From positions 1 through 43,011 of the forward strand of contig JAFUAD010000049.1 of NCBI GenBank assembly GCA_017460835.1: a stretch of 43,011 bases of DNA, in the 5' to 3' direction. How positions within the stretch are numbered: the first letter of the stretch is position 1; every line of letters starts with the position of its first letter. This DNA is from Oscillospiraceae bacterium. GTDB taxonomy: Bacteria > Bacillota > Clostridia > Oscillospirales > Ruminococcaceae. Positions 16,660 through 31,000 of the stretch are shown piece by piece. A model generated the notes under the pieces. It ran no database searches and was not told the origin of the DNA. It saw only the letters and a program-made list of their open reading frames with translations. The translations under genes were made by a program, and so were the position numbers.

Positions 16660-16677
16660 AGTTAGATAAATCTAACT
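16660..16677. promoter_or_regulatory. Perfect 18-bp palindrome, candidate metal-regulator operator
   Basis: AGTTAGATAAATCTAACT has perfect 8-bp arms and lies 22 bp before the FTR1 start codon, just upstream of its ribosome site. Its position and TTAG/CTAA half-sites suit a DtxR-family repressor; such a protein is encoded at 40009. It could alternatively act as an RNA hairpin in the leader. Confidence 0.55.
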
Positions 16678-16698: not shown

Positions 16699-18375
16699 AT
16701 GCAGCCCGGATATCGGCACCGTGCCGGCCGGCTCCTCGGCGCTCTGGCGCTGATGCTGCTCTGGTGCCTCGCAGCGCTGAACAGCTTTTCGGCGTCGGCG
16801 GAAACGGCATATTACAAATCGTTTGACGAATACAAGGCCGCGGGCGGCGCGGTCTCCTCGTGGAATGACATCGCGGACGCGATCGACGATGTCATGGAGG
16901 CGTCCTATCAGATGTATCACGAGGGCGACAAGGACAACGCCTACACCGCGATCCTCAACACCTACAATTTCTACTATGAGACCTCCGGCTTCGAGCGGAC
17001 CGTCAACGGCTATTCCGGCTCGGAGGTCAGCAAGGCGGAATTGCAGTTCAAAACCGCGCGGAAAGCCGTGAAAAAGGGCTATTCCGAGGAGCAGATCGCG
17101 GCGGAATTCAACAAGCTCAGCGAGATTCTGCACCGGCAGGCAAATCACCTGGACGGCCTCGGAGACAGCGGCGAAAGCAAGCTGAATCTCACCGGAGAGG
17201 CACCGGCACAGACCGATGCCCCCGCCGACGGCTCTGACACGGCGCAGACAACCGCGAGCGCCGAGCCGGTCACGCCGGGCGCCAATGCGATTCCGGTCGG
17301 GGGCGGCGGCAGCACCATGCTGACGTTCTTCTCCTGCTTCGGCATCATCCTGCGCGAGGGTCTCGAGGCGATTCTGGTCGTCGGCGCGATCATCGCGTAT
17401 CTGGTGAAATCCGGCAACAAAGATAAGCTCAAGGCGGTCTATGCCGGCTGCGTGCTGGCGATCATCGCGAGCTTTGTCAGCGCATGGCTGCTCAATCAGC
17501 TCAAGCTCGCAAACACTGCAAATCAGGAGATCATCGAGGGCGTGACCGCGCTGATCGCCGTGATCGTGCTGTTCTATGTCAGCAACTGGATGGTCTCGAA
17601 GGCAGAGGCCGAGGCGTGGACAAAGTACATCGACGATCAGGTGAAGGTCTCCGCGGAGACCGGCAGCGTCTTTACGCTCGGCTTTACGGCGTTTCTCGCG
17701 GTGTACCGTGAGGGCGCAGAGGTGATTCTGTTCTATCAGCCGCTGCTGAAGGGCGCCGACAGCATGAAATATGTCTGGGGCGGCTTCGCGGTCGGATGCG
17801 TCGTGCTGGCGGCCGTGTTCCTTGTGATCCGCTTCCTCAGCGTCAGACTGCCGATCAAGCCCTTCTTCCTCGGCACCAGCATTCTGATGTTCCTGATGTC
17901 GATTTCGTTCCTCGGCTCCGGCATCAAGGAGCTGATCGAGGGCGACGTCATCGACATGACCTCTCCCGAGTGGCTGCAATCCATTATCCCGTTCAATGAC
18001 ACGCTGGATGTGCTCGGCATTTACCCGGTGCTCCAGACGCTGATCCCGCAGATGATCCTGATTCTGATTACGGTCATGATCTTCGTCATGCGGAACTGGA
18101 AGCAGCGCAACAAGACGGAAGCCGGTGTGCTCGCGATCCTGTTCGGCGGGCTCGGCATGCACAAATTCTACCTCGGCAAATACGGGCAGGGGCTGCTCAG
18201 CATCGTGTTCTGCTGGACGCTGATTCCGGCGTTCTGCGGCATCATGCAGGGTGTGCATTACCTGACAATCCCGCAGGAGCAGTTTGAGGAGGAGCTCGCA
18301 CCGAAGAAAAAGGTCAAGGCGAAAAAGCCTGCCGCAGCTCCCGCAAAGCAGCAGAAAGCAAAATCTGCAAAATAA
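16699..18375 (+). CDS. FTR1-family iron permease with extracellular N-terminal domain and C-terminal TM2 domain
   Basis: 558 residues. A signal peptide is followed by an extracytoplasmic helical domain (about 36-160), a Thr/Pro/Ala linker, and the FTR1 permease from about 207 on. Both REGxE iron-binding motifs are present: LREGLEAILVV (219-223) and YREGAEVILFY (337-341). A small TM2 domain follows at about 474-522 (FGGLGMHKFYLGKYGQG) and then a Lys/Ala-rich tail; this fused domain is not part of standard FTR1/EfeU/FetM. It moves iron across the cytoplasmic membrane. The start follows GGAGGGAG. It is the first gene of the long plus-strand locus, with P19 next, as in Campylobacter and enterobacterial fetMP. 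Confidence 0.92.
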   Translation: MQPGYRHRAGRLLGALALMLLWCLAALNSFSASAETAYYKSFDEYKAAGGAVSSWNDIADAIDDVMEASYQMYHEGDKDNAYTAILNTYNFYYETSGFERTVNGYSGSEVSKAELQFKTARKAVKKGYSEEQIAAEFNKLSEILHRQANHLDGLGDSGESKLNLTGEAPAQTDAPADGSDTAQTTASAEPVTPGANAIPVGGGGSTMLTFFSCFGIILREGLEAILVVGAIIAYLVKSGNKDKLKAVYAGCVLAIIASFVSAWLLNQLKLANTANQEIIEGVTALIAVIVLFYVSNWMVSKAEAEAWTKYIDDQVKVSAETGSVFTLGFTAFLAVYREGAEVILFYQPLLKGADSMKYVWGGFAVGCVVLAAVFLVIRFLSVRLPIKPFFLGTSILMFLMSISFLGSGIKELIEGDVIDMTSPEWLQSIIPFNDTLDVLGIYPVLQTLIPQMILILITVMIFVMRNWKQRNKTEAGVLAILFGGLGMHKFYLGKYGQGLLSIVFCWTLIPAFCGIMQGVHYLTIPQEQFEEELAPKKKVKAKKPAAAPAKQQKAKSAK

Positions 18376-18461
18376 CAGACGCCTTTCATTTGCCGGCGCA
18401 AAAACCGGCTGAGATAAAGGAACCCCATGATCTTTGTTCAATTGACTAGGAGGTAATGAAC

Positions 18462-19124
18462 ATGAAAAAGAAACTGATCGGTATTTCACTTCTCGCGGCA
18501 ATGGCAATGTCCTTTGTCGGCTGCGGCGATGACAGCAGCAGCAGCAGCACCGCAGCTGCCGGCAACAGCGCAGCTGCTTCCTCTGAGGCAGAGGAAGTCT
18601 CCGCAGATGTCAGCTCTGAGGCAGCAGCTCCGGATGACGAGGTCGGCGGCGGCTTTACCGAGTACCCGATTTTCGAGGACGAGGAAGCTGGCTTCCTGAA
18701 CGTCTCCGCGGTGTACTTCCAGCCGGTTCCGATGTCCGGCGGCAACGAGAGCATCGAGGGCTTCGATATGCACCTTGAGGCAGACGTTTCCGCTCTGGAG
18801 AACAAGCTGGGCTTCGGCGTCGGCGACTGGGTTCCGTACATGACCGTTGATTACAGAGTCATCGCTTCCGACGGCTCTGATGCAGCAAAGGGCTCCTTCA
18901 TGGTCATGAGCGCATCCGACGGCCCGCACTACGGCGCAAACATCAAGCTGCCGAATGCGGATACCTACAGCCTCGAATTCACCTTCCACAGCCCGGAGGA
19001 CAACGGCTATCTGCTCCACACCGACGCAGAGACCGGCCCCGGCGGCTCCTTCGATGACTACTTCGGCAACGGCCCGATCGTCGTGAAGTACGACGGCTGG
19101 GATTATGCACCGCAGGAGTGGTAA
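18462..19124 (+). CDS. P19/Tp34-family periplasmic iron-binding lipoprotein
   Basis: 220 residues. AGGAGG at 18449-18454 sits 7 nt before ATG 18462, whereas the ATG two codons earlier is too close to be used. The signal peptide ends in the lipobox FVGC (Cys21), followed by a Ser/Ala/Glu-rich spacer. The folded domain carries the P19 family marks: FDMHLEADVSALE with Met and His metal ligands, GFGVGDWVPYMTVDYRV, and GPHYGANIKLP. In P19 the site binds copper and iron, and the protein works with the FTR1 permease. Its codons look strongly optimised, which suggests high expression. A terminator hairpin follows at 19163, so it may be made in excess over the genes downstream. Confidence 0.9.
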   Translation: MKKKLIGISLLAAMAMSFVGCGDDSSSSSTAAAGNSAAASSEAEEVSADVSSEAAAPDDEVGGGFTEYPIFEDEEAGFLNVSAVYFQPVPMSGGNESIEGFDMHLEADVSALENKLGFGVGDWVPYMTVDYRVIASDGSDAAKGSFMVMSASDGPHYGANIKLPNADTYSLEFTFHSPEDNGYLLHTDAETGPGGSFDDYFGNGPIVVKYDGWDYAPQEW

Positions 19125-19162
19125 TTTCCCCCCATGTGACTTCTTAAGCCTTCCTTTTTCAT

Positions 19163-19215
19163 GCAGATGCGCTTGTGCTGCCGCAGCCCGGCAGGACGGC
19201 GCATTTGCGTGTTTT
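19163..19215 (+). terminator. Terminator (possibly partial) after the P19 gene
   Basis: GCAGATGCGC (19163-19172) pairs with GCGCATTTGC (19199-19208) with one mismatch, enclosing CTGCCG/CGGCAG (19178-19183/19189-19194), and is followed by GTGTTTTTA. It lies within the locus, so it probably lets only part of the transcription continue. Confidence 0.7.
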
Positions 19216-19346
19216 TAGGCGGATTGATGAAAATAGCCGGATTTCCGGCGATATGTTGAGACACTCTGGAATGAGTGACCAAACGGAGCGGTTTGCAAAA
19301 AAACACAGGCTGCTCCGGGAATTCCCGGAAAAGGAGGCAGGGAAAC

Positions 19347-20684
19347 TTGCTGAAATACTTTGTTGATACGACAGAAGCGCTGCTGACAGCCGGCTTGCTG
19401 ACCGGTCTCATCGCGGGCTTTGCAAAGCGTGCATACGGAAAGCGCGGGAGCATCCCGCTGCTGATCGCCGCGGCGCTGGGACTGCTCGCGGCGGCGCGCA
19501 TGGCATATCTGAAAAATACGACGCGGAAGATCGACACCTCGCTCTGGAACCTCCGGATCTTCCGGGTATCGCTTGCTGCGCTCGGCGCATTTTTTGTTCT
19601 GGCGATTCTCACGGCTGTGATGTACGGCATCGGCAAGCGCGCGGCGAAGGCGGAGAAGCCGACCGGCTTTCAGAAAATCTGCCGGGAGAACGGCCCTGCC
19701 GACACCGTCCTCAAGGTGCTGGCGGCATCCGCGCTCGGCATCATCGTGTTCGGGCTGATGCTCTATCTGCTGCCGGATGTGTTCTCGAATCCGTACATCA
19801 TCCTGATGACGGAGAAAACCGTCGTATCCTCTGCATTTTTGCTGAAAACGATCGGCATTCTGTTCGGCGTGCTGGCGGTGAGCCTTGCGGGGCTCGCGGT
19901 CTGCAAGGTGCTGCTGCGGCTGCCGGTCCCGTGCGGGGCGGCGGTGCTCAGCCTCGCGCTGATCTCCAATGCGCTGCGGCAGGCTGCAAACTGCCTGCGC
20001 ATCATGCAGACCAAGCGGATGATCACCAGAGCGAACAAGCATTATCACGATTATTTCGAGATCATCAAATTTACCTCCAATCACGATGAACTGTTTACCT
20101 ATGCTGCGATCTGCATTGCACTGGCAGCGCCGATTCTGCTGCTGATCCGCAGCTTTCTTGCGAAGGAATCCTACAGCAACCCCGCACAGCACCGGAAGAT
20201 CCGGAGGAAGCACACGGTCAGCCGGCGCTGGTCGGCATTCTCCGTGCTCTGCGCGGGCTTTGCCGTGTTCACGATGACGAAGCTGCACGCGGTCGCAAAC
20301 CGCAAGATCGACCTCGCGCCGATCGAAAGCTGCATCATGGACGACAACAATCTGTATATCCCCTTTGAGCAGGTCGCGGACGGGCATCTGCACCGCTTCG
20401 CCTACACGACGCCGGACAATGTGCAGATTCGTGTCATTGTCATCAAAAAGCCGAATTCCTCCGCCTACGGCATCGGGCTCGATGCCTGCGATATCTGCGG
20501 CGAGACCGGCTATTACGAAAAGGGCGGGCAGGTCGTCTGCAAGCTGTGCGATGTGGTCATGAACATCAACACGATCGGCTTCAAGGGCGGCTGCAACCCG
20601 ATCGTCATTCCGTACAGCATCGAAAACGGGCAGATCGTGATCCCGTTCTCCGGGCTGGTCGAGCACAAAAAGGAATTTCAGTAA
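19347..20684 (+). CDS. DUF2318 (Fe-S-containing) polytopic membrane protein of the FTR1/P19 locus
   Basis: 445 residues. The start is taken as TTG 19347, 9 nt after AAGGAGG; no in-frame ATG has a ribosome site. Seven or eight membrane helices fill residues 1-300. The C-terminal extracytoplasmic DUF2318 domain carries DACDICGETGYY (Cys381, Cys384), VVCKLCD (Cys398, Cys401) and GFKGGCNP (Cys416), a likely metal or iron-sulfur site. The homologues Cj1660 and FetA occupy the same place in their iron loci. It probably handles iron or electrons on the outer face; the exact job is not established. The next gene begins 14 nt later. Confidence 0.88.
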   Translation: MLKYFVDTTEALLTAGLLTGLIAGFAKRAYGKRGSIPLLIAAALGLLAAARMAYLKNTTRKIDTSLWNLRIFRVSLAALGAFFVLAILTAVMYGIGKRAAKAEKPTGFQKICRENGPADTVLKVLAASALGIIVFGLMLYLLPDVFSNPYIILMTEKTVVSSAFLLKTIGILFGVLAVSLAGLAVCKVLLRLPVPCGAAVLSLALISNALRQAANCLRIMQTKRMITRANKHYHDYFEIIKFTSNHDELFTYAAICIALAAPILLLIRSFLAKESYSNPAQHRKIRRKHTVSRRWSAFSVLCAGFAVFTMTKLHAVANRKIDLAPIESCIMDDNNLYIPFEQVADGHLHRFAYTTPDNVQIRVIVIKKPNSSAYGIGLDACDICGETGYYEKGGQVVCKLCDVVMNINTIGFKGGCNPIVIPYSIENGQIVIPFSGLVEHKKEFQ

Positions 20685-20698
20685 AGGAGGCGCTGTGC

Positions 20699-21988
20699 AT
20701 GTTTCTGAGAATGATCCGCGGAACGCTGTTCCGGCAGTGGAAGAAAATGATCATGATTGCGTTTACGATCGCGCTCGGCGCCTCGCTCGCGACGGCAATG
20801 CTCAGCGTCATGCTGGACGTCGGCGACAAGGTGAACCAGGAGCTCAAGACCTACGGTGCGAACATCACCGTCGTGCCGAAATCGGCGTCGGTGCTGAATA
20901 ACCTCTACGAAATGGAGGGCGATTCCGCGGGGAGCTATCTGCGGGAGGATGAGCTCGGCAAGATCAAAACGATCTTCTGGGCATTCAATATCGTCGATTA
21001 TGCGCCGTTTCTGCGCACAACCGCCACTACGGCGGACGGCACAGAGGCGGCCGTTGTCGGGAGCTGGTTCCATCACCGCATGGAGCTCCCGACCGGCGAA
21101 ACGCTGAATGCGGGCATCACGAGCCTGCGGAACTGGTGGGAGCTGACCGAGGGCGAATGGCTCGATGAGCAGAAATCCGGCGATGATGCCGAGGCTGCCA
21201 TGATCGGGACGCTGCTCGCGGAAAGGCTGGGGCTTCATGCCGGCGATACGCTGCATGTGACCGGCACCGCGGCAGAAAAGGACCTGAAGATCGTCGGCAT
21301 TTTCGATGCCGGCGGCGACGAGGATGACCAGATCTACACGATGCTCAACACGGCGCAGGCGCTCGGCGGCCTTGACGGCTGCGTGGACAGCATCGAGGTC
21401 AGCGCGCTGACAACGCCAGAAAATGAGCTTGCAGAGCGCGCCGCGAAGGACCCCTCCTCGCTGACCGTTGCGCAGTATGAGACATGGTACTGCACGGCCT
21501 ATGCCAGCTCGATCTGCTGGCAGATTCAGGAGGCGGTGACGGACTGCGTCGCGGCTCCTGTGCGGCAGGTTGCGGACTCCGAGGGCGCAATCCTCGAAAA
21601 GACGCAGCTTCTGATGATTCTGATTACGATTCTCAGCCTGATCGGTGCCGCACTCGGCATCTGCAATCTCGTTACGGCAAGCGTCATGGAGCGCAGCGGC
21701 GAGATCGGACTGATGAAGGCGATCGGCGCGCAGAACGGCGCAGTCTCGCTGCTGGTGCTGACGGAAATCTTCCTGACGGCGATCATCGGCGGTGTGCTCG
21801 GATTCTTCGCGGGCTGGGGCTTTGCGCAATTGATCGGCCATACCGTTTTCGGCTCGGCGATCACAATGCGCGGCATGGTCATTCCGATCGTTGCGGTGCT
21901 GGTCGCGCTGGTGACGCTGATCGGCAGTATTCCGGCGATCCGGATGCTGCTGCGGTTACAGCCGGCAGAGGTGCTGCACGGACGCTGA
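20699..21988 (+). CDS. MacB/FtsX-type ABC permease 1 of the iron locus
   Basis: 429 residues from the ATG after AAAGGAGG (20683-20690); the open frame continues upstream into the previous gene and is ignored. There is one N-terminal transmembrane helix (MIMIAFTIALGASLATAML), a large extracytoplasmic MacB-type domain (about 45-290, starting KTYGANITVVPK), and three C-terminal helices containing the FtsX motif ERSGEIGLMKAIGAQNGAV. MacB-type permeases do not form a channel for small ions; they transmit ATP-driven movement to the outside. It pairs with the next permease and the ATPase, as Cj1661/Cj1662 or FetB/FetC do. Confidence 0.9.
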   Translation: MFLRMIRGTLFRQWKKMIMIAFTIALGASLATAMLSVMLDVGDKVNQELKTYGANITVVPKSASVLNNLYEMEGDSAGSYLREDELGKIKTIFWAFNIVDYAPFLRTTATTADGTEAAVVGSWFHHRMELPTGETLNAGITSLRNWWELTEGEWLDEQKSGDDAEAAMIGTLLAERLGLHAGDTLHVTGTAAEKDLKIVGIFDAGGDEDDQIYTMLNTAQALGGLDGCVDSIEVSALTTPENELAERAAKDPSSLTVAQYETWYCTAYASSICWQIQEAVTDCVAAPVRQVADSEGAILEKTQLLMILITILSLIGAALGICNLVTASVMERSGEIGLMKAIGAQNGAVSLLVLTEIFLTAIIGGVLGFFAGWGFAQLIGHTVFGSAITMRGMVIPIVAVLVALVTLIGSIPAIRMLLRLQPAEVLHGR

Positions 21989-22000
21989 ACAGGAGGAAGC

Positions 22001-23152
22001 ATGAGCAAGCAGAAAATGTTTTTCCGGATGATCATTGCATCGCTGCTGCGGCGGCGCTCCAGAATGCTGGTCGCGCTGCTCTCCATTGCAATCGGTGCGA
22101 CGATCCTCTCCGGTCTTGTGACAATTTATTACGATGTGCCCCGGCAGATGGGCGCAGAATTCCGCAATTACGGTGCAAATATGATCCTGACCGCCGCGGA
22201 TGAGGCATTCACGCGAAGTGATGCAGAGCAGGGCGTGAAGATGATCTCCTCCGGCGATCTGGTCGGCTATGCACCGTACCGCTATGAGAATGTGCGCGTG
22301 CGCGAAAATCCGGTCGTCGCGGCAGGAACCGACTTCAGCGGCGCGAAAAAGACCAGTCCTTACTGGAAAATCGAGGGCGAATGGGCGGATGCAAGCGGCG
22401 AGCTCGTGATCGGCGCAAATGTCGCGGAATCCTTCCGGCTGAAGGAGGGCGAGGCGCTGACGGTCAGCTATACGCCCGAAAGCGGGGAGGAATCCGGCGA
22501 GGTGCTGGTCGATCTGACAAAGGATTTCACGATCACCGGCATCCTCGAAACGGGCGGCTCGGAGGAGGACTACATCTACATGTCGCTCGACGATCTTGCG
22601 GAGCTGACCGGCAGCGAGGGCACGCTCGATGTCTGCGAGGTCAGTGTCTCCGGCGGCGCGGATGTGCTGCAAGGATATGTGAACAAAATCAACAGCGGCA
22701 GCAATGCGGTGCGGGCGCGGCTCGTCAAGCGCGTGACCGCCTCGGAAACGACCGTTCTGACGAAATTGCAGGCGCTCGTGCTGCTGGTGACGGTCGTTGT
22801 GCTCGCGCTGACGATGATCTGCGTCGCGACGACGATGACGGCGGTTGTCGCGGAGCGCAGGCGGGAGATCGGCCTTCGCAAGGCGATCGGTGCGCCGGAC
22901 GGCGCCATCCTCCGCGAATTCATGGGCGAAAGCATGCTGCTGGGGCTGCTCGGCGGAATCCTCGGTGCGGTGCTGGGATTTGTCTTTGCACAGCAGGTGA
23001 GCATCCGCGTGTTCAGCAGCGCGATCCGCTTCCGGCCGATGCTGGTGCCGGTCACGATCTTGGTCTCCGTCGCGGTGACAGGACTCGCGAGCCTCATGCC
23101 GGTCCGCAGCGCGACCGAGGTTGACCCCGCGCTGGTCTTAAAGGGCGAATAA
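22001..23152 (+). CDS. MacB/FtsX-type ABC permease 2 of the iron locus
   Basis: 383 residues, ATG after AGGAGG, 12 nt behind the previous stop. It has the same architecture as permease 1: N-terminal helix (LVALLSIAIGATILSGL), extracytoplasmic domain starting EFRNYGANMILT, and C-terminal three-helix FtsX domain with AERRREIGLRKAIGAPDGAI. The two are clearly paralogous (shared NYGAN/TYGAN start of the outer domain and the EIGL-KAIGA motif) and probably form a heterodimer. It ends shortly before the ATPase gene. Confidence 0.9.
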   Translation: MSKQKMFFRMIIASLLRRRSRMLVALLSIAIGATILSGLVTIYYDVPRQMGAEFRNYGANMILTAADEAFTRSDAEQGVKMISSGDLVGYAPYRYENVRVRENPVVAAGTDFSGAKKTSPYWKIEGEWADASGELVIGANVAESFRLKEGEALTVSYTPESGEESGEVLVDLTKDFTITGILETGGSEEDYIYMSLDDLAELTGSEGTLDVCEVSVSGGADVLQGYVNKINSGSNAVRARLVKRVTASETTVLTKLQALVLLVTVVVLALTMICVATTMTAVVAERRREIGLRKAIGAPDGAILREFMGESMLLGLLGGILGAVLGFVFAQQVSIRVFSSAIRFRPMLVPVTILVSVAVTGLASLMPVRSATEVDPALVLKGE

Positions 23153-23173
23153 GCACGAAGGAGTGTGGAAAAT

Positions 23174-23863
23174 ATGAGCTTACTGGAACTGAAAAACGTC
23201 TCGAAAATCTACGGCGAGCTGCACGCACTGGACAATGTCAGCCTGAAGGTGGAGAAGGGCGAGTGGGTCTCGATCATGGGACCCTCCGGCTCCGGAAAAT
23301 CGACGATGATGAACATTATCGGCTGCATGGATAAGCCGACAAAGGGCGAGGTGCTGCTCGACGGCGTTGATCTCGCAAAGCAGAGCAAGCGGAATCTGAC
23401 GACCATCCGCCGCGACAAGATCGGGCTGATCTTTCAGCAGTTTCATCTGGTCAATTACCTGACTGCGGTGGAAAATGTCATGCTCGCGCAGTATTATCAC
23501 AGCATGCCGGACGAGAAGGAGGCGCTGGAGGCGCTGGAGCGCGTCGGGCTGAAGGACAGGGCAAAGCATCTGCCGCGGCAGCTCTCCGGCGGCGAGCAGC
23601 AGCGTGTCTGCGTGGCGCGCGCGCTCATCAATTACCCGGAGATCATCCTCGCGGACGAACCGACCGGCAACCTTGACGAAGCAAACGAAGAAATCGTGGT
23701 CGATCTGTTCCGGCGGCTGCACGAGGAGGGCACGACGCTGATCGTCGTCACGCATGACCCGGAGGTCGCGGAGGTCGCGCAGCGGACGCTCGTTCTGCGC
23801 AGCGGAAAGCTCGCGAAGGAGACCGTCAACCCGAATTTCACCGGAAAAATCCGGTTTTCCTGA
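23174..23863 (+). CDS. ABC transporter ATPase of the iron locus (MacB/LolD type)
   Basis: 229 residues. ATG 23174 is 10 nt after AAGGAG; the GTG at 23165 is too near that site. Walker A is GPSGSGKST (36-44), the Q-loop is in LIFQQFHLV, the signature is LSGGEQQRV, Walker B is IILADEPTGNLD, and the switch His is in VVTHDPEVA. It is the energiser for permeases 1 and 2 and corresponds to Cj1663/FetD. The gene is followed after 14 nt by the FMN-binding lipoprotein, where enterobacteria and Campylobacter have thioredoxin-like genes. Confidence 0.93.
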   Translation: MSLLELKNVSKIYGELHALDNVSLKVEKGEWVSIMGPSGSGKSTMMNIIGCMDKPTKGEVLLDGVDLAKQSKRNLTTIRRDKIGLIFQQFHLVNYLTAVENVMLAQYYHSMPDEKEALEALERVGLKDRAKHLPRQLSGGEQQRVCVARALINYPEIILADEPTGNLDEANEEIVVDLFRRLHEEGTTLIVVTHDPEVAEVAQRTLVLRSGKLAKETVNPNFTGKIRFS

Positions 23864-23877
23864 TCGGAGGGATTACG

Positions 23878-24333
23878 ATGAAAAAGCGAAATATTCTGCT
23901 CGGCGCGGTGCTGCTCTGCGGGCTGTGCCTTGCGGGCTGCGGTGAGGATGAGACCCCGAAGAATTACAAGGACGGAACCTATACCGCAAAGAGCGAGCAG
24001 TATGTCAACGATGACGAGGCGGATACCGCCGGAAACGGCTACGGCGTCGTGACACTGACGATCAAGGACAACAAAATCACCGAATGCGAATTCAAGACCT
24101 ATGAGCTGGACGGCACGCTGAAGGATGCCGAATACGGCAAGGAAAACGGCGAGATCGCAAACCGCGACTTCTATAACAAGGCGCAGAAGGCGGTCGGCGC
24201 CTGCGACCAGTACGCGAGCAGGCTCGTCGAAAAGGGCAGCCTCAAGGGCGTGGATGCGATCAGCGGCGCCACGATCAACTACGGCGAATTCAAGGAAGCC
24301 GTCAGCATCGCGCTCGAACAGGCGGCGCAGTAA
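23878..24333 (+). CDS. FMN-binding-domain lipoprotein (probable ApbE-flavinylated electron carrier)
   Basis: 151 residues with a lipoprotein signal (LCLAGC, Cys21). The domain resembles the FMN-binding repeat of RnfG/NqrC. It has YKDGTYTAKSEQ at the start, GYGVVTLTIKDNKIT in the middle and the flavinylation motif DAISGATINY near the end; Thr132 of SGAT would carry FMN, attached by an ApbE transferase that is not encoded in this window. It is expected to carry electrons on the outer face of the membrane. It lies between the ABC genes and the fumarate-reductase-like genes, which makes it the natural link between the two halves of the locus. That link is inference. Confidence 0.88.
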   Translation: MKKRNILLGAVLLCGLCLAGCGEDETPKNYKDGTYTAKSEQYVNDDEADTAGNGYGVVTLTIKDNKITECEFKTYELDGTLKDAEYGKENGEIANRDFYNKAQKAVGACDQYASRLVEKGSLKGVDAISGATINYGEFKEAVSIALEQAAQ

Positions 24334-24337
24334 GCAG

Positions 24338-24847
24338 ATGCGCAGGCTCTTGCATCTGATCGCGGATCTCGCGGTTCTGTTCCTGATCCTCGGGCTCCCG
24401 ATGCTCTGCACGGATACCGGCAGGGCGGTGCTGCGCGGGCAGCCGGACGCCGTATCGGGCGCCTCGGTCATCGCAGCGCAGCCCTCCGGCAATTATGTCG
24501 TGCTGCTCAATACGGACCGGCACCCGGATAAAGGAAATCTCGCGCTTTGGGAGCAGTTCTTCACGGGCGACGAGGCGCCGGTGATCTTCGAGGATATCTC
24601 CTGCCTGACCGCTGTCAGCGACCGCGGCGGGCGGGATATGGCGGAGAGCTGCCGCTCGCGCCTGCCGGAAAACCAGATGACCGTACAGGCGATCGACAGC
24701 ACACTGCTGCTCTCGAAGGCGGAATACGGGCTGTTTGACTGCATCATTCTCTCGCAGGAGGCAGCGGATGCGGGCGGCGCTTCGGCGCTCTCTACCCATC
24801 CGGAGATCCTGTTTCTGTATGTCAGCGACAAAGGAGCATCAACATGA
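24338..24847 (+). CDS. Membrane-anchored extracytoplasmic protein of unknown function
   Basis: 169 residues from the ATG 4 nt after the lipoprotein stop; its stop overlaps the next start (ATGA). One N-terminal transmembrane helix spans about 5-24 (LHLIADLAVLFLILGLPMLC). The soluble part begins GQPDAVSGASVIAAQ: residues 37-43 (DAVSGAS) look like a flavinylation motif with Ser in place of Thr, though the rest does not resemble an FMN-binding domain. The remainder (VVLLNTDRHPD, LFDCIILSQEAADAG) suggests an alpha/beta fold. I do not recognise the family. Tight coupling on both sides argues that it belongs to the electron-transfer module. Confidence 0.75.
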   Translation: MRRLLHLIADLAVLFLILGLPMLCTDTGRAVLRGQPDAVSGASVIAAQPSGNYVVLLNTDRHPDKGNLALWEQFFTGDEAPVIFEDISCLTAVSDRGGRDMAESCRSRLPENQMTVQAIDSTLLLSKAEYGLFDCIILSQEAADAGGASALSTHPEILFLYVSDKGAST

Positions 24848-25395
24848 GAAAATGGAATGCAGTGCTCAGTATGGGCATTCTGGTGCTGTTTCTGGTTCAT
24901 GCGGTCGCGGGCGGATTTCAGCTTGCGGGGGTCATCCCCGGCGGAAACCGCATTCTCAGCATCGCGGCGTATTTGATGACCGTTCTGGTGCTGATTCACG
25001 CGGTGCTCGGCATTATCCTGACCGTACAGACCCTCAAGACGCAGAAGCGGGCGGGCGTCTCCTATTTCCGCGAAAATACGCTGTTCTGGCTGCGGCGGAT
25101 CAGCGGCTTTGCGGTGATGTTTCTGCTATTGGCGCATGTCCTGATCTTCGAGGGCACAAGGCGCGGCGGCGTGTTCCGGCTGCGGTTCTTCGGCAGGGTG
25201 CAGCTTCTGTCGCAGATTTTGCTGGTGCTTGCGGTCGCGGTGCATGTGCTCTCCAATATCCGGCCGCTGATGACCGCACTCGGCATCCGGAAATACCGGC
25301 GGTTTTTGCTCGATCTGCTGCTGATTCTGTCGGTTCTGCTGCTGTTTGCGGGCGCTGCGTTTGTTGTGTATTATATTCGCTGGCAGGCGATCTGA
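24844..25395 (+). CDS. Five-helix membrane anchor, putative diheme cytochrome b of a fumarate-reductase-like complex
   Basis: 183 residues with five predicted helices at about 7-28, 37-64, 83-104, 118-143 and 152-178. Four His lie within the first four helices: His19, His52, His98 and His134. Five helices and four intramembrane His resemble the membrane anchor of diheme quinol:fumarate reductases such as Wolinella FrdC, though placement of the His differs and overall similarity is too weak to be certain. It overlaps the preceding gene by 4 nt and is followed at once by the flavoprotein and iron-sulfur subunits, giving the order C-A-B. Its role would be to pass electrons between quinone or an outer carrier and the Fe-S subunit. 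Confidence 0.75.
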   Translation: MRKWNAVLSMGILVLFLVHAVAGGFQLAGVIPGGNRILSIAAYLMTVLVLIHAVLGIILTVQTLKTQKRAGVSYFRENTLFWLRRISGFAVMFLLLAHVLIFEGTRRGGVFRLRFFGRVQLLSQILLVLAVAVHVLSNIRPLMTALGIRKYRRFLLDLLLILSVLLLFAGAAFVVYYIRWQAI

Positions 25396-25413
25396 CGGGA
25401 GGTGCTGCGGAGC

Positions 25414-27006
25414 ATGAAACGGTTTCTGATTATCGGCGCGGGGCTGAGCGGGCTTTCCGCAGCGATCACGCTTGCGGAGCGCGGGCTCCCCTGCGCACTC
25501 TTTTCGCTTCAGCCCTCCGAGCGGGCACAGTCCGTTCTTGCGGAGGGCGGCATCAATGCCGCGCTGAATACGATGCACGAGGATGACAGCCCCGCAGAGC
25601 ATTTTGCCGATACGGTGCGCGGCGGCTGCGGGCTCGCCGACCCGGAGGCGGTGCGCGGGCTGACGGAGCATGCGCCGGAAATACTGCGGCGGCTGGAGCG
25701 CTGCGGCGTGCCGTTTCATATGCAGAACGGGACGCTCATGCTCCGGAATTTCGGCGGGCAGAAGAAAAAGCGGACGGCATATGCCCGCAGCAGCACCGGG
25801 AAAATGATCATGACCGCGCTGATTGACGAGGCGCGGAAATATGAAGCCGCGGGACTGATTCACCGGTTTCCGCATCACGAATTTCTGCGGCTGCTGCTCC
25901 GGGCGGACAAATCCTGCGCGGGCGTGCGCTGCCGGGACTGCTATACCGGCGAAATCCGCGATTATTTCGGCGCAGTGCTGCTCTGCTGCGGCGGCATGAA
26001 CGGGCTCTTTCCGGAGATGACCACCGGCACGACCCAGAACAGCGGCGATGCTGCTGCGGCGGTGTTCATGCAGGGGGTGCCCTTTGGCAATCCGGAAATG
26101 CTGCAATATCACCCGACGACCGTCGGCATTTCCGGCAAGCGGTGTCTTGTCTCGGAGGCGGCGCGCGGCGAGGGCGGCAGGCTGTTTATTGAAAAAAACG
26201 GCGCCCGCTGGTATTTCATGGAGGAGCTGTATCCGGAGCTTGGCAATCTGATGCCGCGGGATGTGGTGGCGCGGGAGATGTTCCGCGTCCGGCAGAGCCC
26301 CGGATGCGGCGGTCAGGTGTATCTCGATCTGACCGGGCTTTCCGCAGAGACATGGGCGCAGAAGCTCTCCGATCTGCGGGAGGAGCTGATCGCCTATCTT
26401 TCGCTCGACCCAAAGCGCGAGCCGGTTCCGGTCAAAGAGGGCATCCACTATTTTATGGGCGGAATCGCGGTCGATGCAAAGCACCGCGCAGGGCTGCGCG
26501 GGCTCTATGCGGCGGGCGAGTGTGCCTGTCAGTATCACGGCGCAAACCGGCTCGGCGGAAATTCCATGCTCGGCGCACTGTACGGCGGAAAAACCGCGGC
26601 GGAAACGGCTGCTGCCGAGGCGCAGGATGCCGAACCGGACTGTCCTGTTCAGGAGGATGAGCCGCTCCTGACACCCGCCGACCCGCGCCTGATCCTGCAA
26701 ATCCGCGACATTCTGCTTTCCGGGCTCGGCATTGTCCGCGATGAAACAACACTGCAAGGAGCACTGCAATCGCTTGCGGAGCTGTCGGCGGCGCGGGAAT
26801 CCAATGCGCGGGAAAAAGCAAGACTTTGCCTTGCCGGGGCAATGCTGCAAGCGGCACTGGAGCGGCGCGAGAGCCGCGGCGCACATTACCGCGCGGATTT
26901 TCCGCAATCGGATGAAGCATACCGGAAAACGACCGTCGTGTGCTGTGAAAACGGCGCAGCTTCGGTGAAATTTGTGCCGCTGCCGGAGGAGGGAGCCAGC
27001 GTATGA
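25414..27006 (+). CDS. Fumarate reductase/succinate dehydrogenase-like flavoprotein subunit
   Basis: 530 residues; ATG 25414 lies 11 nt after GGGAGG (the GTG at 25402 overlaps it). The FAD motif is IIGAGLSGLSAAITLAERG. Family motifs follow: AEGGINAAL (43-51), the active-site HPTT (His233), RGEGGRLF, the catalytic Arg in MPRDVVAREM (Arg287), HYFMGGI, and the C-terminal YHGANRLGGNSMLGAL. The residue that carries covalent FAD in SdhA/FrdA (His before TVAAEGG) is Gln39 here, so FAD is probably bound non-covalently. E. coli FrdA mutants at that His keep fumarate reduction but lose succinate oxidation. L-aspartate oxidase is the main alternative, but the Fe-S and membrane partners argue against it. 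Confidence 0.87.
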   Translation: MKRFLIIGAGLSGLSAAITLAERGLPCALFSLQPSERAQSVLAEGGINAALNTMHEDDSPAEHFADTVRGGCGLADPEAVRGLTEHAPEILRRLERCGVPFHMQNGTLMLRNFGGQKKKRTAYARSSTGKMIMTALIDEARKYEAAGLIHRFPHHEFLRLLLRADKSCAGVRCRDCYTGEIRDYFGAVLLCCGGMNGLFPEMTTGTTQNSGDAAAAVFMQGVPFGNPEMLQYHPTTVGISGKRCLVSEAARGEGGRLFIEKNGARWYFMEELYPELGNLMPRDVVAREMFRVRQSPGCGGQVYLDLTGLSAETWAQKLSDLREELIAYLSLDPKREPVPVKEGIHYFMGGIAVDAKHRAGLRGLYAAGECACQYHGANRLGGNSMLGALYGGKTAAETAAAEAQDAEPDCPVQEDEPLLTPADPRLILQIRDILLSGLGIVRDETTLQGALQSLAELSAARESNAREKARLCLAGAMLQAALERRESRGAHYRADFPQSDEAYRKTTVVCCENGAASVKFVPLPEEGASV

Positions 27007-27737
27007 CCGTGACCCTGACTGTTCTGCGGCAGGCATCGCCGGATGATGCCCCATACCGGCAGACGATCCTGTTTGAGACGGACGACATGCAGATGACCGT
27101 GGCGTCCATGCTGCAAAAAATCAATGCAGACCCTGCATGCACCGATACCGAGGGGCGGGCAGTGACCCCGATCCGCTGGGAATGCAGCTGTCTGCAAAAG
27201 AAATGCGGCGCCTGCGCCATGCGGATCAACGGCAGACCGCGCCTTGCCTGCGATGCGCTGCTCTCAGAGTTCCGGCGCGGGCGCATTCTGCTTGAGCCGC
27301 TGCGGAAATTCCCCGTGGTCGCCGATCTGACCGTGGACCGCAGTATTCTGATGCAGAATCTCATGCGGATGCAGATCTGGTTTGCGGAGGATGCAGAGCC
27401 GGATGAGGCAGTCCGTGGGCTGACCTATGATGCCTCGCGCTGCTTGCAGTGCGGCTGCTGTCTGGAGGTCTGCCCGAATTTCTGCGCAGACGGTAAATTC
27501 TACGGCATGGCAGGGCTTCTGCCCGCGGCGCGCCTGCTGACGGCACTGCCGGAATCGCAGAAGGAGGCCATGCAGCAGGCATACCGCAAGCACCTCTATG
27601 AGGGCTGCGGCAAATCGCTCGCCTGCCATGATATCTGTCCCGCCGGCATTCCGGTTGACCGGCTGCTGGTCAATGCCAATGCTGCGGCAGTCTGGAAGCG
27701 GAGGCCGCGCCGCAGGCGGGAGAAGCCCGATGAATAG
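27003..27737 (+). CDS. Fumarate reductase-like iron-sulfur subunit
   Basis: 244 residues, overlapping the flavoprotein gene by 4 nt (ATGA). The N-terminal ferredoxin domain has the [2Fe-2S] ligands Cys63-x4-Cys68-x2-Cys71-x11-Cys83. The C-terminal domain has Cys147-x2-Cys150-x2-Cys153-x3-CysPro157 and Cys202-x5-Cys208-x3-CysPro212, the same spacing as E. coli FrdB, where these bind one [4Fe-4S] and one [3Fe-4S] cluster. So a full three-cluster electron wire is present. An extra Cys61 stands just before the first ligand. The C-terminal tail is basic (KRRPRRRREK). Confidence 0.92.
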   Translation: MTVTLTVLRQASPDDAPYRQTILFETDDMQMTVASMLQKINADPACTDTEGRAVTPIRWECSCLQKKCGACAMRINGRPRLACDALLSEFRRGRILLEPLRKFPVVADLTVDRSILMQNLMRMQIWFAEDAEPDEAVRGLTYDASRCLQCGCCLEVCPNFCADGKFYGMAGLLPAARLLTALPESQKEAMQQAYRKHLYEGCGKSLACHDICPAGIPVDRLLVNANAAAVWKRRPRRRREKPDE

Positions 27738-28668
27738 GCATGCGGCACTGCGCCTGTTTACGCTGATTTTCTCGGTTCTGCTGCTGATTCCGGCAGCGGT
27801 GCTGTGCAGCCGCCCGCAGCAGCGCGCACACAGCTACGCCGTCCGGCAGGATCTCAGCGTGTATTTCACAAATGCCGACGCCGTGATCGACTCGGTGCGG
27901 GAGGCGCTGCGGCAGCGATCGCAGTCGGTCACGCTGACCTACCGCGCAGAGGGCGACCATATGGCGGATATCGCCGCGCTGACCGAAGACCTGATGCAGT
28001 TTGTCTATGCAGAGACGGACGCGCCGGATGCGGGCGATTATCTGAGGTATCAGACTGCGGGCTATGCACTGCGGTACAGCCGGAGCCCCGAGGGCAGCGG
28101 CTATGCCTATCAGATCACCGTTGTGCCGGAGTATTACACCGATCTGAAGCAGGAGCAGCTTGTCACGGAGCGCGTGCGGGCATTGACCAAAGAGCTGAAC
28201 CTTGCAGATATCCCCTCGGAGTCCGAACGGGCGCTCGTCATTTACGACTATGTGCGCGGGGCGGTGTCCTATGACACGGTACACCGGAAAAATGCGTATT
28301 ATCATCTGAAATCGACGGCATACGGCGCACTGTTCAACCGCACGGCGACCTGTCAGGGCTATGCGGTTCTGCTGTACCGGCTGCTGCGCGAGGCGGGGCT
28401 GAAAGCGCGCATTGTGACCGGCTATGCCGGCGATGACGGCGCCGAGCCCGAATATCACGCATGGAATCTCGTCTGTATTGACGGGCTGTATTACAATCTC
28501 GACGCAACATGGGACAGAGGGACGGAGGCGCCGCGCTGGTTTCTGCGCTGTGATGCCGGGTTTCCGCATCATCAGCGCACCGGGGACTGCGCCGGGCCCG
28601 CCTTCGCCGAAGCCTGTCCGATGGCAGCGCAGGACTACCCGCTGCCGATGAAAGGAGCCTTATCATGA
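27730..28668 (+). CDS. Membrane-anchored transglutaminase-like protein
   Basis: 312 residues from ATG 27730, overlapping the iron-sulfur gene by 8 nt; a longer frame inside that gene is ignored. A signal anchor spans about 7-25 (LRLFTLIFSVLLLIPAAVL). The C-terminal transglutaminase-like core shows the Cys-His-Asp triad in the usual context: TATCQGYAVLLYRLLREAG (Cys208), EYHAWNLV (His243) and YNLDATWD (Asp258). Such bacterial proteins act as peptidases or cross-linkers on cell-surface proteins. Why one sits inside an iron and electron-transfer locus is unclear; it might process a partner in the envelope. It overlaps the following gene by 4 nt, so it is cotranscribed. Confidence 0.85.
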   Translation: MNRHAALRLFTLIFSVLLLIPAAVLCSRPQQRAHSYAVRQDLSVYFTNADAVIDSVREALRQRSQSVTLTYRAEGDHMADIAALTEDLMQFVYAETDAPDAGDYLRYQTAGYALRYSRSPEGSGYAYQITVVPEYYTDLKQEQLVTERVRALTKELNLADIPSESERALVIYDYVRGAVSYDTVHRKNAYYHLKSTAYGALFNRTATCQGYAVLLYRLLREAGLKARIVTGYAGDDGAEPEYHAWNLVCIDGLYYNLDATWDRGTEAPRWFLRCDAGFPHHQRTGDCAGPAFAEACPMAAQDYPLPMKGALS

Positions 28669-29066
28669 AAAAAATCCTGCAAATCATTCTGCTGCTGATG
28701 AGCGCGGCGCTCTGCGCGGGCGTCAAGCTCGTGTTTCATGCCTGCGCAAAGCCCGCAGGCGGCATGTGGATGCACTGCCATGACGCGGAAAATGCGGTTT
28801 GCGGCATTGCCGCAGGGCTTGCCGTCCTCTCGCTGCTGATGCTGCTCATCAAAAACGGCAAAATCGCGGGCTGCATCGGGATTCTGACTGCGGCGGGCGC
28901 GGCTGCTGCGGCGCTGGTTCCGGGGCATATCGTCAAAATGTGCATGATGGACACGATGCGCTGCCATGCGGTCATGAAGCCGGCGGTGATCGTGTTCAGC
29001 GTGCTGATCGCGCTGCTCGCGCTCTGCTGCGCGGTGCTGCGGTTTACGGAAAAGAAGGAAAGCTGA
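28665..29066 (+). CDS. DUF4418-family membrane protein
   Basis: 133 residues, four membrane helices (about 3-25, 44-62, 66-88, 105-126). Short loops carry Cys and His: FHACAKPAGGMWMHCHDAE between helices 1 and 2, and VKMCMMDTMRCHAVMK between helices 3 and 4. This layout is that of DUF4418, a family of unknown function. The loops, rich in Met, Cys and His, look suited to binding a metal. It overlaps the transglutaminase gene by 4 nt and is followed after 11 nt by the second permease. Confidence 0.82.
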   Translation: MKKILQIILLLMSAALCAGVKLVFHACAKPAGGMWMHCHDAENAVCGIAAGLAVLSLLMLLIKNGKIAGCIGILTAAGAAAAALVPGHIVKMCMMDTMRCHAVMKPAVIVFSVLIALLALCCAVLRFTEKKES

Positions 29067-29077
29067 GGAGAAGCCGC

Positions 29078-30286
29078 ATGAAGCAGAAAATCAGTCTGCC
29101 GCGGAGGAATCTCGCCGGAAGCCCCGGCAGAACCGCCGTTCTGGTGCTCCTGACCGCGCTGCTGACGATGACGGTGCTCGGCGGCACGCTGATCGTTTCG
29201 GGGCTGCGCAAGGGGCTGCGCTCGCTGGAGGGGCGGCTTGGCGCGGATGTCATGGTCGTGCCCTATGAGGCGACAACGCAGTCAAAGCTCGAGGATATCG
29301 TGCTTCAGGGCAGCACCGGCTATTTCTACATGGACCGCAAGCTCTGCGACAAGATCACGGCGCGCGAGGGCGTCGGGCAGGTGTCCGTGCAGCTCTTTCT
29401 CGCCTCGACCAGCTCCGGCTGCTGCTCCATCCCCGTGCAGATCATCGGCTTTGACCCGGAGACGGATTTCACCGTATCTCCGTGGATCAGGCAAAAGCGC
29501 AGCGAGCCGCTCGGCGCGGGCGATATCGTCGTCGGCAATGACCTCAACGCATTTGTCGGCGATACGCTGACCTTTTACGGCGTGGAGTGCCATGTCGCCG
29601 CGAAGCTCGACAAAACCGGCACGCGCTTCGACACGGCGGTGTTCACGAATCTCGACACGATCCGCATGCTGATTCAGTCGTCGATCGACCGCAAAATGAA
29701 CGATTTTCAGAAGCTCAACCCGGACGGCGTTGTCTCCTGTGTGCTCATCAATCCCGCGGACGGCTACTCGGCCGAGGAGGTCGTGAACGACATCAATCTG
29801 CATGTGAAAAAGGTGCGGGCGATCCGCACGAAGGAGATGATCTCCGGCGTATCGGACAGCCTCTCCGGCATCGCGTCGGTCACGGGCATTCTGATCGCTG
29901 CGGTCTGGGTGCTGGTCATCATCATCCTGCTGCTCGTGTTCACGATGAGTGTCAATGAGCGGAAGCGCGAATTTGCGGTGCTGCGCGTGATCGGCGCATC
30001 CCGCGGCGCTGCGGCACGGTGCGTATTGCAGGAGGCACTGACGGTCGGGCTCCTCGGCGGGGCTGCGGGCATCGGCATCGGCCTGCTGGTCGTGCTCCCC
30101 TTCAACAGCCTGATTGAGGAGACGCTCGGGCTGCCGTTTCTGCTGCCCGGCGGCGGGCGCATTGCCCTGCTGAGCGGCGCGGCACTGCTGCTTGCGGCGA
30201 TTGTCAGTGCGGCGGCATCGGCGCTGTCCGCATACCGGATCAGCCGGCTCGACCCGGCCGTGATTCTGAGGGGGGATGCATCATGA
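29078..30286 (+). CDS. MacB/FtsX-type ABC permease of the second pair
   Basis: 402 residues from the ATG after GAGGAG; the frame continues upstream into the DUF4418 gene but without a start signal. N-terminal helix (TAVLVLLTALLTMTVLGGTL), extracytoplasmic MacB domain (about 50-285, with LGADVMVVPYEATTQ), and three C-terminal helices around the motif NERKREFAVLRVIGASRGAA. It is related to permeases 1 and 2 of this locus but diverged (GADVMVVP instead of GANITVVP). With only one permease gene here, a homodimer is likely. It overlaps the ATPase gene by 4 nt. Confidence 0.9.
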   Translation: MKQKISLPRRNLAGSPGRTAVLVLLTALLTMTVLGGTLIVSGLRKGLRSLEGRLGADVMVVPYEATTQSKLEDIVLQGSTGYFYMDRKLCDKITAREGVGQVSVQLFLASTSSGCCSIPVQIIGFDPETDFTVSPWIRQKRSEPLGAGDIVVGNDLNAFVGDTLTFYGVECHVAAKLDKTGTRFDTAVFTNLDTIRMLIQSSIDRKMNDFQKLNPDGVVSCVLINPADGYSAEEVVNDINLHVKKVRAIRTKEMISGVSDSLSGIASVTGILIAAVWVLVIIILLLVFTMSVNERKREFAVLRVIGASRGAAARCVLQEALTVGLLGGAAGIGIGLLVVLPFNSLIEETLGLPFLLPGGGRIALLSGAALLLAAIVSAAASALSAYRISRLDPAVILRGDAS

Positions 30287-30969
30287 GGCTGACCGCAGAG
30301 GGCATCAGCAAGGAATATCTGCGCGAGAATGCCGCAGCGGGAACAAACCGCTTCTGCGCCGTCCGGGAGACGTCGCTCACGCTGGAGCCCGGCACGGTGA
30401 CCGTCCTGACGGGGCGCTCCGGCAGCGGCAAGACCACGCTGCTGCACATGCTCGGCGGGCTGAGCGAACCGGGCAGCGGCAGAGTTCTGCTCGGCGATAC
30501 TGACCTCTATGCGCTGCCGGACAAGCAGCGTTCGGCGCTGCGGAACCGGGAATTCGGCATCATTCCGCAGGGGCAGACCGCCCTGCACAGCCTGACCGCC
30601 GCGGAGAACATTCTGCTGCCCTGCTATCTCAGCGGAGAAAAGCCCGATCTTGCTTTTGCGGAGGAATTGATGCAGCGGCTGGATATTTCGGCGCTGCGCG
30701 ATGCAAGGCCCGCGGCGCTTTCGGGCGGGGAGCTCCGGCGCGTCGCGATCGCGCGGGCACTGATCCGCAGGCCGTCGGTGATTCTTGCGGATGAACCGAC
30801 CGGCGATCTCGATGACGAAAACACAAAGACCGTATTCGGGCTGCTGAAGGAAACCGCAGAGGCCGGCGCTGCCGTGCTGATCGTGACGCATGAGACGGAT
30901 GCCGCGCAGTATGCGGACCGGCAGTACAGAATGCAGTCCGGCGCGCTGACAGAACCGGATGCGCCGTAA
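30283..30969 (+). CDS. ABC transporter ATPase of the second pair
   Basis: 228 residues. Walker A is GRSGSGKTT, the Q-loop is in GIIPQGQTALHSLTAAEN, the signature is LSGGELRRV, Walker B is VILADEPTGDLD, and the switch His is in IVTHETDAA. It is of the MacB/LolD type, coupled by ATGA overlap to the permease. It is the last gene of the plus-strand locus; a strong hairpin follows. Confidence 0.92.
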   Translation: MRLTAEGISKEYLRENAAAGTNRFCAVRETSLTLEPGTVTVLTGRSGSGKTTLLHMLGGLSEPGSGRVLLGDTDLYALPDKQRSALRNREFGIIPQGQTALHSLTAAENILLPCYLSGEKPDLAFAEELMQRLDISALRDARPAALSGGELRRVAIARALIRRPSVILADEPTGDLDDENTKTVFGLLKETAEAGAAVLIVTHETDAAQYADRQYRMQSGALTEPDAP

Positions 30970-31000
30970 CATCCCCCAAAAAATGCATGTTCAGAATGAA

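Follow-up and report, generated by a model that had tools for sequence, protein, structure and literature searches.

The 43,011-nt contig JAFUAD010000049.1 of an Oscillospiraceae bacterium (assembly GCA_017460835.1), analyzed here in full and called the window, is a single contig of a 2.98-Mb genome that is 88% complete. It carries 15 genes on one strand (16699-30969) in which a FetMP/P19-type iron-uptake cluster is joined to a candidate electron-transfer cassette. The order is FTR1, P19, DUF2318, two permeases, an ATP-binding cassette (ABC) ATPase and a flavin mononucleotide (FMN)-binding lipoprotein, followed by the cassette itself (an anchored protein, a cytochrome b candidate, a flavoprotein and an iron-sulfur (Fe-S) subunit), a transglutaminase-like protein, DUF4418, and a last permease and ATPase (Table 1). 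We favor, tentatively, the reading that this operon encodes iron import of the P19/FTR1 (FetMP-FetABCD) type with its own quinone-free transmembrane conduit, through which electrons would flow inward to fumarate. That a transmembrane conduit serves this uptake system, in whichever direction the electrons move, is probable. The gene order recurs in dozens of divergent relatives, and the arrangement is therefore more than chance.

Linkage of the cassette to the iron-uptake cluster

Genomes of 84,980 species, one per species, were scanned with a flavoprotein alignment, and the best 80 of 154 relatives were taken. By title these are mostly Ruminococcus, other Oscillospiraceae, Lachnospiraceae and uncultured Clostridia, with Ruminococcus albus 8 among them. 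First-half (uptake) genes lie on the same strand in 62 of the 80 loci, 10 loci, mostly on short contigs, show second-half genes only, and 8 show neither. Where at least 9 kb could be read upstream of the flavoprotein, FTR1, P19 and DUF2318 were found there on the same strand in 46 of 50 loci. A prediction made earlier from the sequence alone (the original prediction) had tied a fumarate-reductase-like module to the uptake cluster, and this tie is borne out: the halves do not lie apart in most relatives, and separate occurrence as the rule is ruled out by the 46 linked loci. In two rearranged loci the parts stay together (L093 and L101, the latter running DUF4418-permease-ATPase-anchored protein-cytochrome-flavoprotein-Fe-S-FTR1-P19-DUF2318-permeases-ATPase-FMN).

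P19 is rare: 6 of 148 family genomes and 7 of 391 class genomes have it, the window's own being included in both counts. Apart from that of the window, five P19 loci occur in the family. Three (L016-L018) repeat the window order from FTR1 to the transglutaminase, and two of these also show part of DUF4418 before the stretch ends; another (L015) is without the cytochrome, flavoprotein and Fe-S genes. P19 was found in 24 of the 29 carrier genomes searched (of the 80), and elsewhere in the genome for all eight stand-alone cassettes, which supports a tie between the halves. Among these eight, the cassette lies ~255 nt from the contig start in L095 and L098, and in L075 only the flavoprotein and Fe-S genes are seen. 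In five of the eight stand-alone genomes the sequence of the P19 locus continues beyond the FMN gene (L015, L134, L137, L138 and L140). Four of them are without the flavoprotein and Fe-S genes, which therefore points to relocation of the cassette, and L140 has both plus a second copy. The stand-alone cassette L060 shares its genome with L015, so that the heads missing from that P19 locus lie elsewhere; L084 and L105 also share one genome.

The flavoprotein tree (88 rows, short search, support from the Shimodaira-Hasegawa-like approximate likelihood-ratio test only, 25 open forks) scatters the stand-alone copies among the P19-linked ones. The stand-alone label, borne by 12 rows including four outside rows, requires 8 changes, at least 4 of them forced by well-supported branches, and is somewhat clustered, 2 of 500 shuffles being as low. 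Because the stand-alone copies are scattered inside a P19-linked clade, linkage looks like the older state there, and stand-alone cassettes as the ancestral form within the clade are unsupported by this tree.

Six P19 clusters of the class (L020-L025; five from one family, three of these of one genus, and one from another family) delimit what has been added. All six have FTR1, P19, DUF2318, both permeases, the ATPase and the FMN protein, and nothing in them matched the four cassette proteins or the transglutaminase. The six also share the third permease and second ATPase, and five of them have DUF4418. Since DUF4418 and the last ABC unit are common to cassette-free clusters, the true addition consists of the cassette (24338-27737) and the transglutaminase. 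The extension described in the original prediction thus holds for these genes and is ruled out for DUF4418 and the last ABC unit. The transglutaminase-like protein (27730-28668) has, by reading, Cys, His and Asp in the usual places and travels with the cassette; its gene precedes FTR1 in L080, L081 and L103.

Three further arrangements were seen. The P19 locus at L138:14828-16928 retains the anchored protein together with a cytochrome whose four His are all present, has no genes for the flavin adenine dinucleotide (FAD) and Fe-S subunits, and its genome holds a second cytochrome-FAD-Fe-S operon elsewhere (L099); the FAD/Fe-S heads may be shared in trans. The stand-alone cassette L063 is followed by a CcdA/DsbD-like membrane protein (PF02683; L063:12365-13024), another transmembrane electron carrier. 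At L150:7504-13610 and L151:100-5978 (minus strand), an ArsR regulator, a heavy-metal P-type ATPase, a DUF6921 protein with DAVTGAT, cytochrome b, flavoprotein and Fe-S genes stand together (families scanned for L150 only); neither genome gave a P19 match, and the cassette may serve another metal system there. The two are among three class genomes, outside the present clade, that combine a strong cytochrome match with no P19 match.

Proteins of the cassette

Conservation was read from the best open reading frame per locus after length filtering (74 of 75 rows retained for the anchored protein, 70 of 72 for the FMN protein and 79 of 80 for the cytochrome); three identical locus pairs are included (L016/L069, L017/L038 and L018/L034).

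The products of the genes at 24338 and 24844 match no Pfam family at E<=0.001. The fold of the 24338 protein is similar to that of 3noh (R. gnavus RUMGNA_00914). This match came first from the fold and then by sequence from a homolog in L150 (L150:10302-10820); the 24338 family searched by sequence against the PDB gave nothing useful, and the protein had no match to DUF6921 (PF21914) at E<=0.001 in the Pfam scan. The entry 3noh, a structural-genomics "putative peptide binding protein", begins with VTGAT, which is an ApbE-type motif, and it is perhaps a membrane-anchored flavin carrier beside a complex II relative rather than a peptide binder. Among the papers listed for DUF6921 or 3noh, none is related, judged by title. 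Within the 24338 family the exact motif D-x-x-[ST]-G-A-[ST] occurs in 16 of 74 homologs, and its final Ser/Thr in 73 of 74. The anchored-protein and cytochrome genes are adjacent in 73 loci, with a median overlap of 4 nt.

The AlphaFold2 model of the cytochrome candidate (predicted local distance difference test 91) has its best fold match in the SdhC b558 chain 9lay_C (prob 1.00, E 1.9e-3, template-modeling score 0.61, root-mean-square deviation 7.2). His52, His98 and His134 are present in 100% and His19 in 97% of 79 homologs. By this model the candidate has the five helices and four axial His of an SdhC-type cytochrome, and it may carry heme.

The flavoprotein contains FAD_binding_2 and Succ_DH_flav_C (Pfam) and falls under the cut-offs of 25 NCBIfam models, among the matches listed. 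Alignment to 1e7p gives the active-site correspondence: His237, Thr239/240, Glu252, Arg255, Arg286, His349 and Arg383, which we take to be the dicarboxylate-site residues, are present in 84 of 84 rows. The His that binds FAD covalently, present in 1e7p and 6lum, is replaced by Gln43 in 84/84 (numbering from a start at 25402), and FAD is accordingly expected, from the alignment, to be held non-covalently. The sole other flavoprotein match in the window's own genome, at 88% completeness, has 31% identity (491 aa) and is perhaps NadB. The Fe-S subunit contains Fer2_3 and Fer4_8 (Pfam), and its 11 cluster Cys, present in 75/75 rows, fit one [2Fe-2S], one [4Fe-4S] and one [3Fe-4S] cluster.

The iron-uptake half and gene layout

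The order FTR1, P19, DUF2318, two permeases and ATPase is, by Pfam, that of a FetMP/P19 cluster, as originally predicted (E-values: FTR1 8.2e-20, P19/Iron_transport 1.2e-43, FtrD-like/DUF2318 1e-28, FMN_bind 8.3e-07 for the lipoprotein that follows); DUF2318, the two permeases and the ATPase stand in the fixed Fet order. Both REXXE motifs of the FTR1 permease are present (R219EGLE and R337EGAE), and R219, E220, E223, R337, E338 and E341 are each kept in at least 93% of 60 rows. A TM2 domain (PF05154, 2.1e-12) is fused at its C-terminus (residues 469-516, window 18103-18246). In P19, lipobox Cys23 and a set of Met, His, Glu and Asp residues are each present in at least 93% of 59 rows; the metal-site residues H106, E108, D110, M149, M151, H158 and H188 are kept and correspond to the metal ligands of C. 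jejuni P19. Cys380, 383, 397, 400 and 415 of DUF2318 are each present in at least 93% of 61 rows, and their pattern matches the one given in a passage of PMC6083913. The gap between P19 and DUF2318 (19125-19346) measures ~220 nt, with a median of 134 nt in relatives; PMC10783030 contains a hint that in C. jejuni the space between fetP and fetA is under iron-dependent control.

The FMN lipoprotein stands where thioredoxin-like genes would be, as the original prediction noted; this replacement has already been published (passages of PMC6083913 and PMC8238504). Lipobox Cys21 is present in 100% and [ST]GAT in 70/70 of its aligned homologs, and there is a weak PplA match, far under that model's cut-off. 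It combines an FMN_bind domain, export, the motif D-x-x-[ST]-G-A-[ST] and ApbE in the genome, the features of an ApbE target, and is probably flavinylated. ApbE was found in all five family genomes with the cluster. A lone P19-like lipoprotein (L019:9761-10360) adjoins a recQ-like gene, by reading, with no other cluster gene beside it, and its genome (G090) gave no ApbE match.

From the first ATPase onward the joints measure 14, 4, -4, 6, -4, -8, -4, 11 and -4 nt. This range of -8 to 14 nt and the gene positions agree with the original prediction (-8 to 15 nt); with the flavoprotein starting at 25414, the 6-nt joint becomes 18 nt. Likely starts, judged by reading, are TTG at 19347 (DUF2318), ATG at 25414 (flavoprotein) and ATG at 29078 (last permease). 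The "second MacB pair" proposed for the end of the run is an ABC unit, made up of one permease and one ATPase rather than two permeases. The run appears to be co-transcribed, and Rfam gave zero matches in the window.

Table 1. Genes and predicted regulatory features of the iron-uptake and electron-transfer operon.
Feature	Position	Strand	Evidence
TTAG-N6-CTAA palindrome, distal copy	16460..16473	.	pattern count
Sigma-70-like promoter TTGACT-17-TAGAAT, extended -10	16520..16548	+	consensus match only; 7 found vs 4.1 expected in region
TTAG-N6-CTAA palindrome, proximal copy, 23 nt before FTR1 start	16662..16675	.	pattern count
FTR1-type iron permease (FetM-like), C-terminal TM2 domain, REGLE and REGAE motifs	16699..18375	+	Pfam, conservation
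P19/FetP iron-binding lipoprotein	18456..19124	+	Pfam, conservation
FtrD-like/DUF2318 membrane protein (FetA-like), CxxC-x13-CxxC-x14-C	19347..20684	+	Pfam, conservation
FtsX/MacB permease 1 (FetB-like), start approximate	20684..21988	+	Pfam
FtsX/MacB permease 2 (FetC-like)	22001..23152	+	Pfam
ABC ATPase (FetD-like)	23165..23863	+	Pfam
FMN-binding lipoprotein, ApbE motif DAISGAT, lipobox Cys21	23878..24333	+	Pfam, conservation
Membrane-anchored half periplasmic-binding-protein domain, ApbE-like motif DAVSGAS just past anchor	24338..24847	+	
Five-helix cytochrome b candidate, SdhC-like, His19/52/98/134	24844..25395	+	AlphaFold2, fold match, conservation
FAD flavoprotein, SdhA/FrdA superfamily, no signal peptide by reading	25414..27006	+	Pfam, NCBIfam, conservation
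Fe-S subunit, SdhB/FrdB-like, motifs for three clusters	27003..27737	+	Pfam, conservation
Anchored transglutaminase-like protein	27730..28668	+	Pfam
DUF4418 membrane protein	28665..29066	+	Pfam
FtsX-type permease 3	29078..30286	+	Pfam
ABC ATPase 2	30283..30969	+	Pfam
Strong hairpin after last gene, likely operon terminator	30965..31070	+	-45.1 kcal/mol, z -4.35

Regulation

Two copies of the palindrome TTAG-N6-CTAA, which we take to be a DtxR/IdeR box core, lie in the window (0.08 expected), each no more than 240 nt upstream of FTR1. Of 53 loci, the window among them, 44 have the palindrome ahead of FTR1, compared with a mean of 2.1 and a maximum of 5 in 30 shuffles, and in 42 of 50 when the identical locus pairs are removed. 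The pattern was picked after its sighting in the window, and the shuffles were scored with the same pattern. The search covered 300 nt upstream and the first 40 nt of the called frame with spacers of 6-9, all matches having a spacer of 6; the single match of L045 falls in those first 40 nt. In the 52 loci that contain FTR1 together with the flavoprotein, 103 copies were counted; 72 of them lie within 350 nt upstream of FTR1 and 6 inside its frame, and none stands directly before the FMN, anchored-protein, cytochrome or flavoprotein genes. This pattern fits one iron-repressed transcript starting at FTR1, and the operon is probably iron-repressed, to judge from the predicted sites. A DtxR-type repressor is present in 48 of 50 carrier genomes (45 of the 80 plus five family genomes, the set also used for ferrochelatase) and is not specific to carriers because 11 of 14 controls have it too. 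A short DtxR-family repressor (131 aa) is encoded in the window at 40009-40404 and is a candidate regulator of the palindrome.

Quinone and heme

UbiA was searched for in 50 of the 80 genomes and exceeded the curated cut-off in four (L067, L088, L101 and L104), with five further weak matches, and in 14 of 14 controls. None of seven genomes including the window's own, five of which carry the cluster, reached the cut-off, with one weak match; four of the seven recur among the 50 through L034, L038, L060 and L069. Quinol, one of the electron sources named in the original prediction, is judged unlikely on these searches, and with UbiA over the cut-off in so few genomes, most carriers probably do not use the cassette as a quinol:fumarate reductase. 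As nearly all carriers are without UbiA, the outer flavin proteins, rather than quinone, are the most likely direct partners of the cytochrome in electron exchange.

None of the 50 carrier genomes gave a ferrochelatase, which 8 of 14 controls have, so that heme must be scavenged or made by another route. The four His of the cytochrome are conserved despite this.

Proposed mechanism and alternatives

In the favored model, the FMN lipoprotein and the anchored half-binding-protein with its ApbE-like motif would stand at the outer face, the four-His cytochrome b of SdhC fold would span the membrane, and the Fe-S subunit and the FAD subunit, whose fumarate/succinate site is intact, would lie in the cytoplasm. 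FTR1-type permeases of this kind take up iron by oxidizing Fe2+ outside the cell; here the electrons so released would pass from P19/FtrD through the FMN proteins, cytochrome b, the Fe-S centers and FAD to fumarate, yielding succinate. Fumarate is a usual electron sink of anaerobes. We infer the direction, the coupling to iron and the response to iron, and favor inward flow, opposite to the original prediction. According to passages of PMC11966278, the Fe3+ that yeast Ftr1p transports must be generated in place, and FtrABCD takes Fe2+ only and is predicted to draw on Fe2+ oxidation. Passages of PMC10783030 assign an E. coli homolog of FetM to the oxidase-dependent family and report that C. jejuni FetE and FetF, which occupy the place of the FMN protein, jointly promoted substrate oxidation in extracts. 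It is conceivable, though we think it doubtful, that the system is an anaerobic counterpart of yeast Fet3-Ftr1 in which the cytochrome carries two hemes, fumarate replaces O2 as sink and energy source and the half-binding-protein is a new kind of flavinylated carrier.

Several observations weigh against inward flow through such a conduit. The sequence itself fits either direction. Heme supply is the weakest point of the electron-wire reading, given the missing ferrochelatase: without heme there is no wire. The 24338 homologs mostly have Ser for the motif Gly (49/74). All six cassette-free class clusters have the FMN protein, which implies that the uptake system does not depend on the cassette. 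P19 was missed in five of the 29 carriers (L031, L041, L055, L073 and L092), all of which have other cluster genes beside the cassette, and three of four class genomes with a strong cytochrome match (>150 bits) gave no P19 match. In the L104 genome the cassette, DUF4418 and second ABC unit lie on another contig than the FTR1-to-FMN part (L141). An FTR1-type box was sought upstream of the stand-alone cassettes and none was found (only ~255 nt being available in L095 and L098); as the palindrome is absent, these cassettes are not visibly in the iron regulon. The counts of P19 and cassette co-occurrence were taken without kinship correction, and absences are soft because metagenome bins are incomplete. 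In passages of PMC10783030, FetE alone also reduced insulin, slowly.

The original prediction had electrons moving outward. In such a reading the cassette would oxidize succinate or another cytosolic donor, and cytochrome b would pass the electrons to FMN proteins that reduce Fe3+, giving P19/FTR1 its Fe2+. This would use the same anatomy as the favored reading, and the FMN proteins of known extracellular electron-transfer systems send electrons outward; succinate, however, is a weak donor in fermenters (~+30 mV), and rumen iron is largely ferrous already. We regard outward flow as rather unlikely, while noting that ferric reduction is the role suggested and preferred for the FMN protein in passages of PMC6083913 and PMC8238504, which counts against the inward direction as well. 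Alternatively, the cassette may be a plain fumarate reductase for redox balance and succinate formation, fed by some quinone-free donor and placed in an iron operon because its Fe-S and heme centers follow iron supply. The intact fumarate site (84/84), the existence of stand-alone copies and the distant, perhaps NadB-like, other flavoprotein match of the window's genome would agree with this. Against it stand the P19 in every stand-alone genome and the anchored-protein gene beside the cytochrome in 73 loci, and iron-costly enzymes are normally off, not on, when iron is short; we think it quite unlikely. An ordinary quinol:fumarate reductase using menaquinone from gut neighbors would account for the subunit make-up, the cytochrome fold shared with SdhCAB and quinol:fumarate reductase, and UbiA in four of 50 genomes. 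It is made very improbable by the 46 of 50 and 7 of 7 genomes without UbiA over the cut-off, by the flavin-type protein adjoining the cytochrome and by the loss of the covalent-FAD His in all rows.

For the redox step of FTR1/P19 import, a question above all in Gram-positive anaerobes, the operon offers a candidate membrane carrier. Dozens of bacteria share it; most are known from rumen and gut metagenomes, and the cultured Ruminococcus albus 8 is one of them. The operon also names a likely redox partner (fumarate/succinate), which makes the redox question testable. If the favored reading is true, iron import in oxygen-free cells would be powered or balanced by fumarate chemistry, and a complex II relative would be working without quinones. 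The anchored protein may also represent a new class of flavinylated proteins, for which a crystal structure (3noh) is already at hand.

Comparison with known systems

No description of the cassette was found in the open-access literature (titles, abstract openings and some passages), though some of the loci may well appear in the gene tables of PMC8238504. With fetMP-fetABCDEF of C. jejuni (CJJ81176_1649-1656; passages of PMC6083913 and PMC10783030), the window shares the first six genes and their order, the Cys spacing of DUF2318 and a regulatory element before the first gene. It differs in having the FMN lipoprotein for the thioredoxin-like FetE/F, a palindrome of the DtxR kind in place of a Fur box, and additionally the cassette, transglutaminase, DUF4418 and second ABC unit. 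The Gram-positive P19/FMN-binding clusters (260 clusters in passages of PMC8238504), to whose kind L020-L025 belong, have P19, FTR1 and the FMN-binding protein in common with it. They are classed there among those without a core membrane electron carrier, whereas a candidate for such a carrier lies inside the window operon. FtrABCD of Bordetella and Brucella (passages of PMC11966278) shares the FTR1-type permease FtrC and the Fe2+ substrate. The window is without the cupredoxin FtrB, no cupredoxin family being found among the 15 products at E<=0.001 (Pfam), and the sink proposed here is fumarate. The likeness extends to the P19-like FtrA and the FtrD-like domain.

On the side of the cassette, the B-type succinate:quinone and quinol:fumarate reductases (SdhCAB and FrdCAB; 6lum, 1e7p and 9lay) have in common with it a full dicarboxylate site, a three-cluster Fe-S subunit and a five-helix, four-His cytochrome; the window differs by Gln for the covalent-FAD His, an extra anchored flavin-type protein and hosts mostly without UbiA. 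The DUF4405-type flavinylation-associated cytochromes and FezC, described in passages of PMC11334425 as heme-b four-His membrane proteins proposed to feed flavinylated carriers, are of six helices and another family, whereas the cytochrome of the window folds like that of complex II and matches no Pfam family. Compared with DUF6921 (PF21914; 3noh), the anchored protein is without a sequence-level Pfam match and its family mostly carries Ser for the motif Gly. The combination is thus a variant of the known P19/FTR1 clusters, in which the FMN-P19 link is already published, made up of known families and one new candidate carrier protein.

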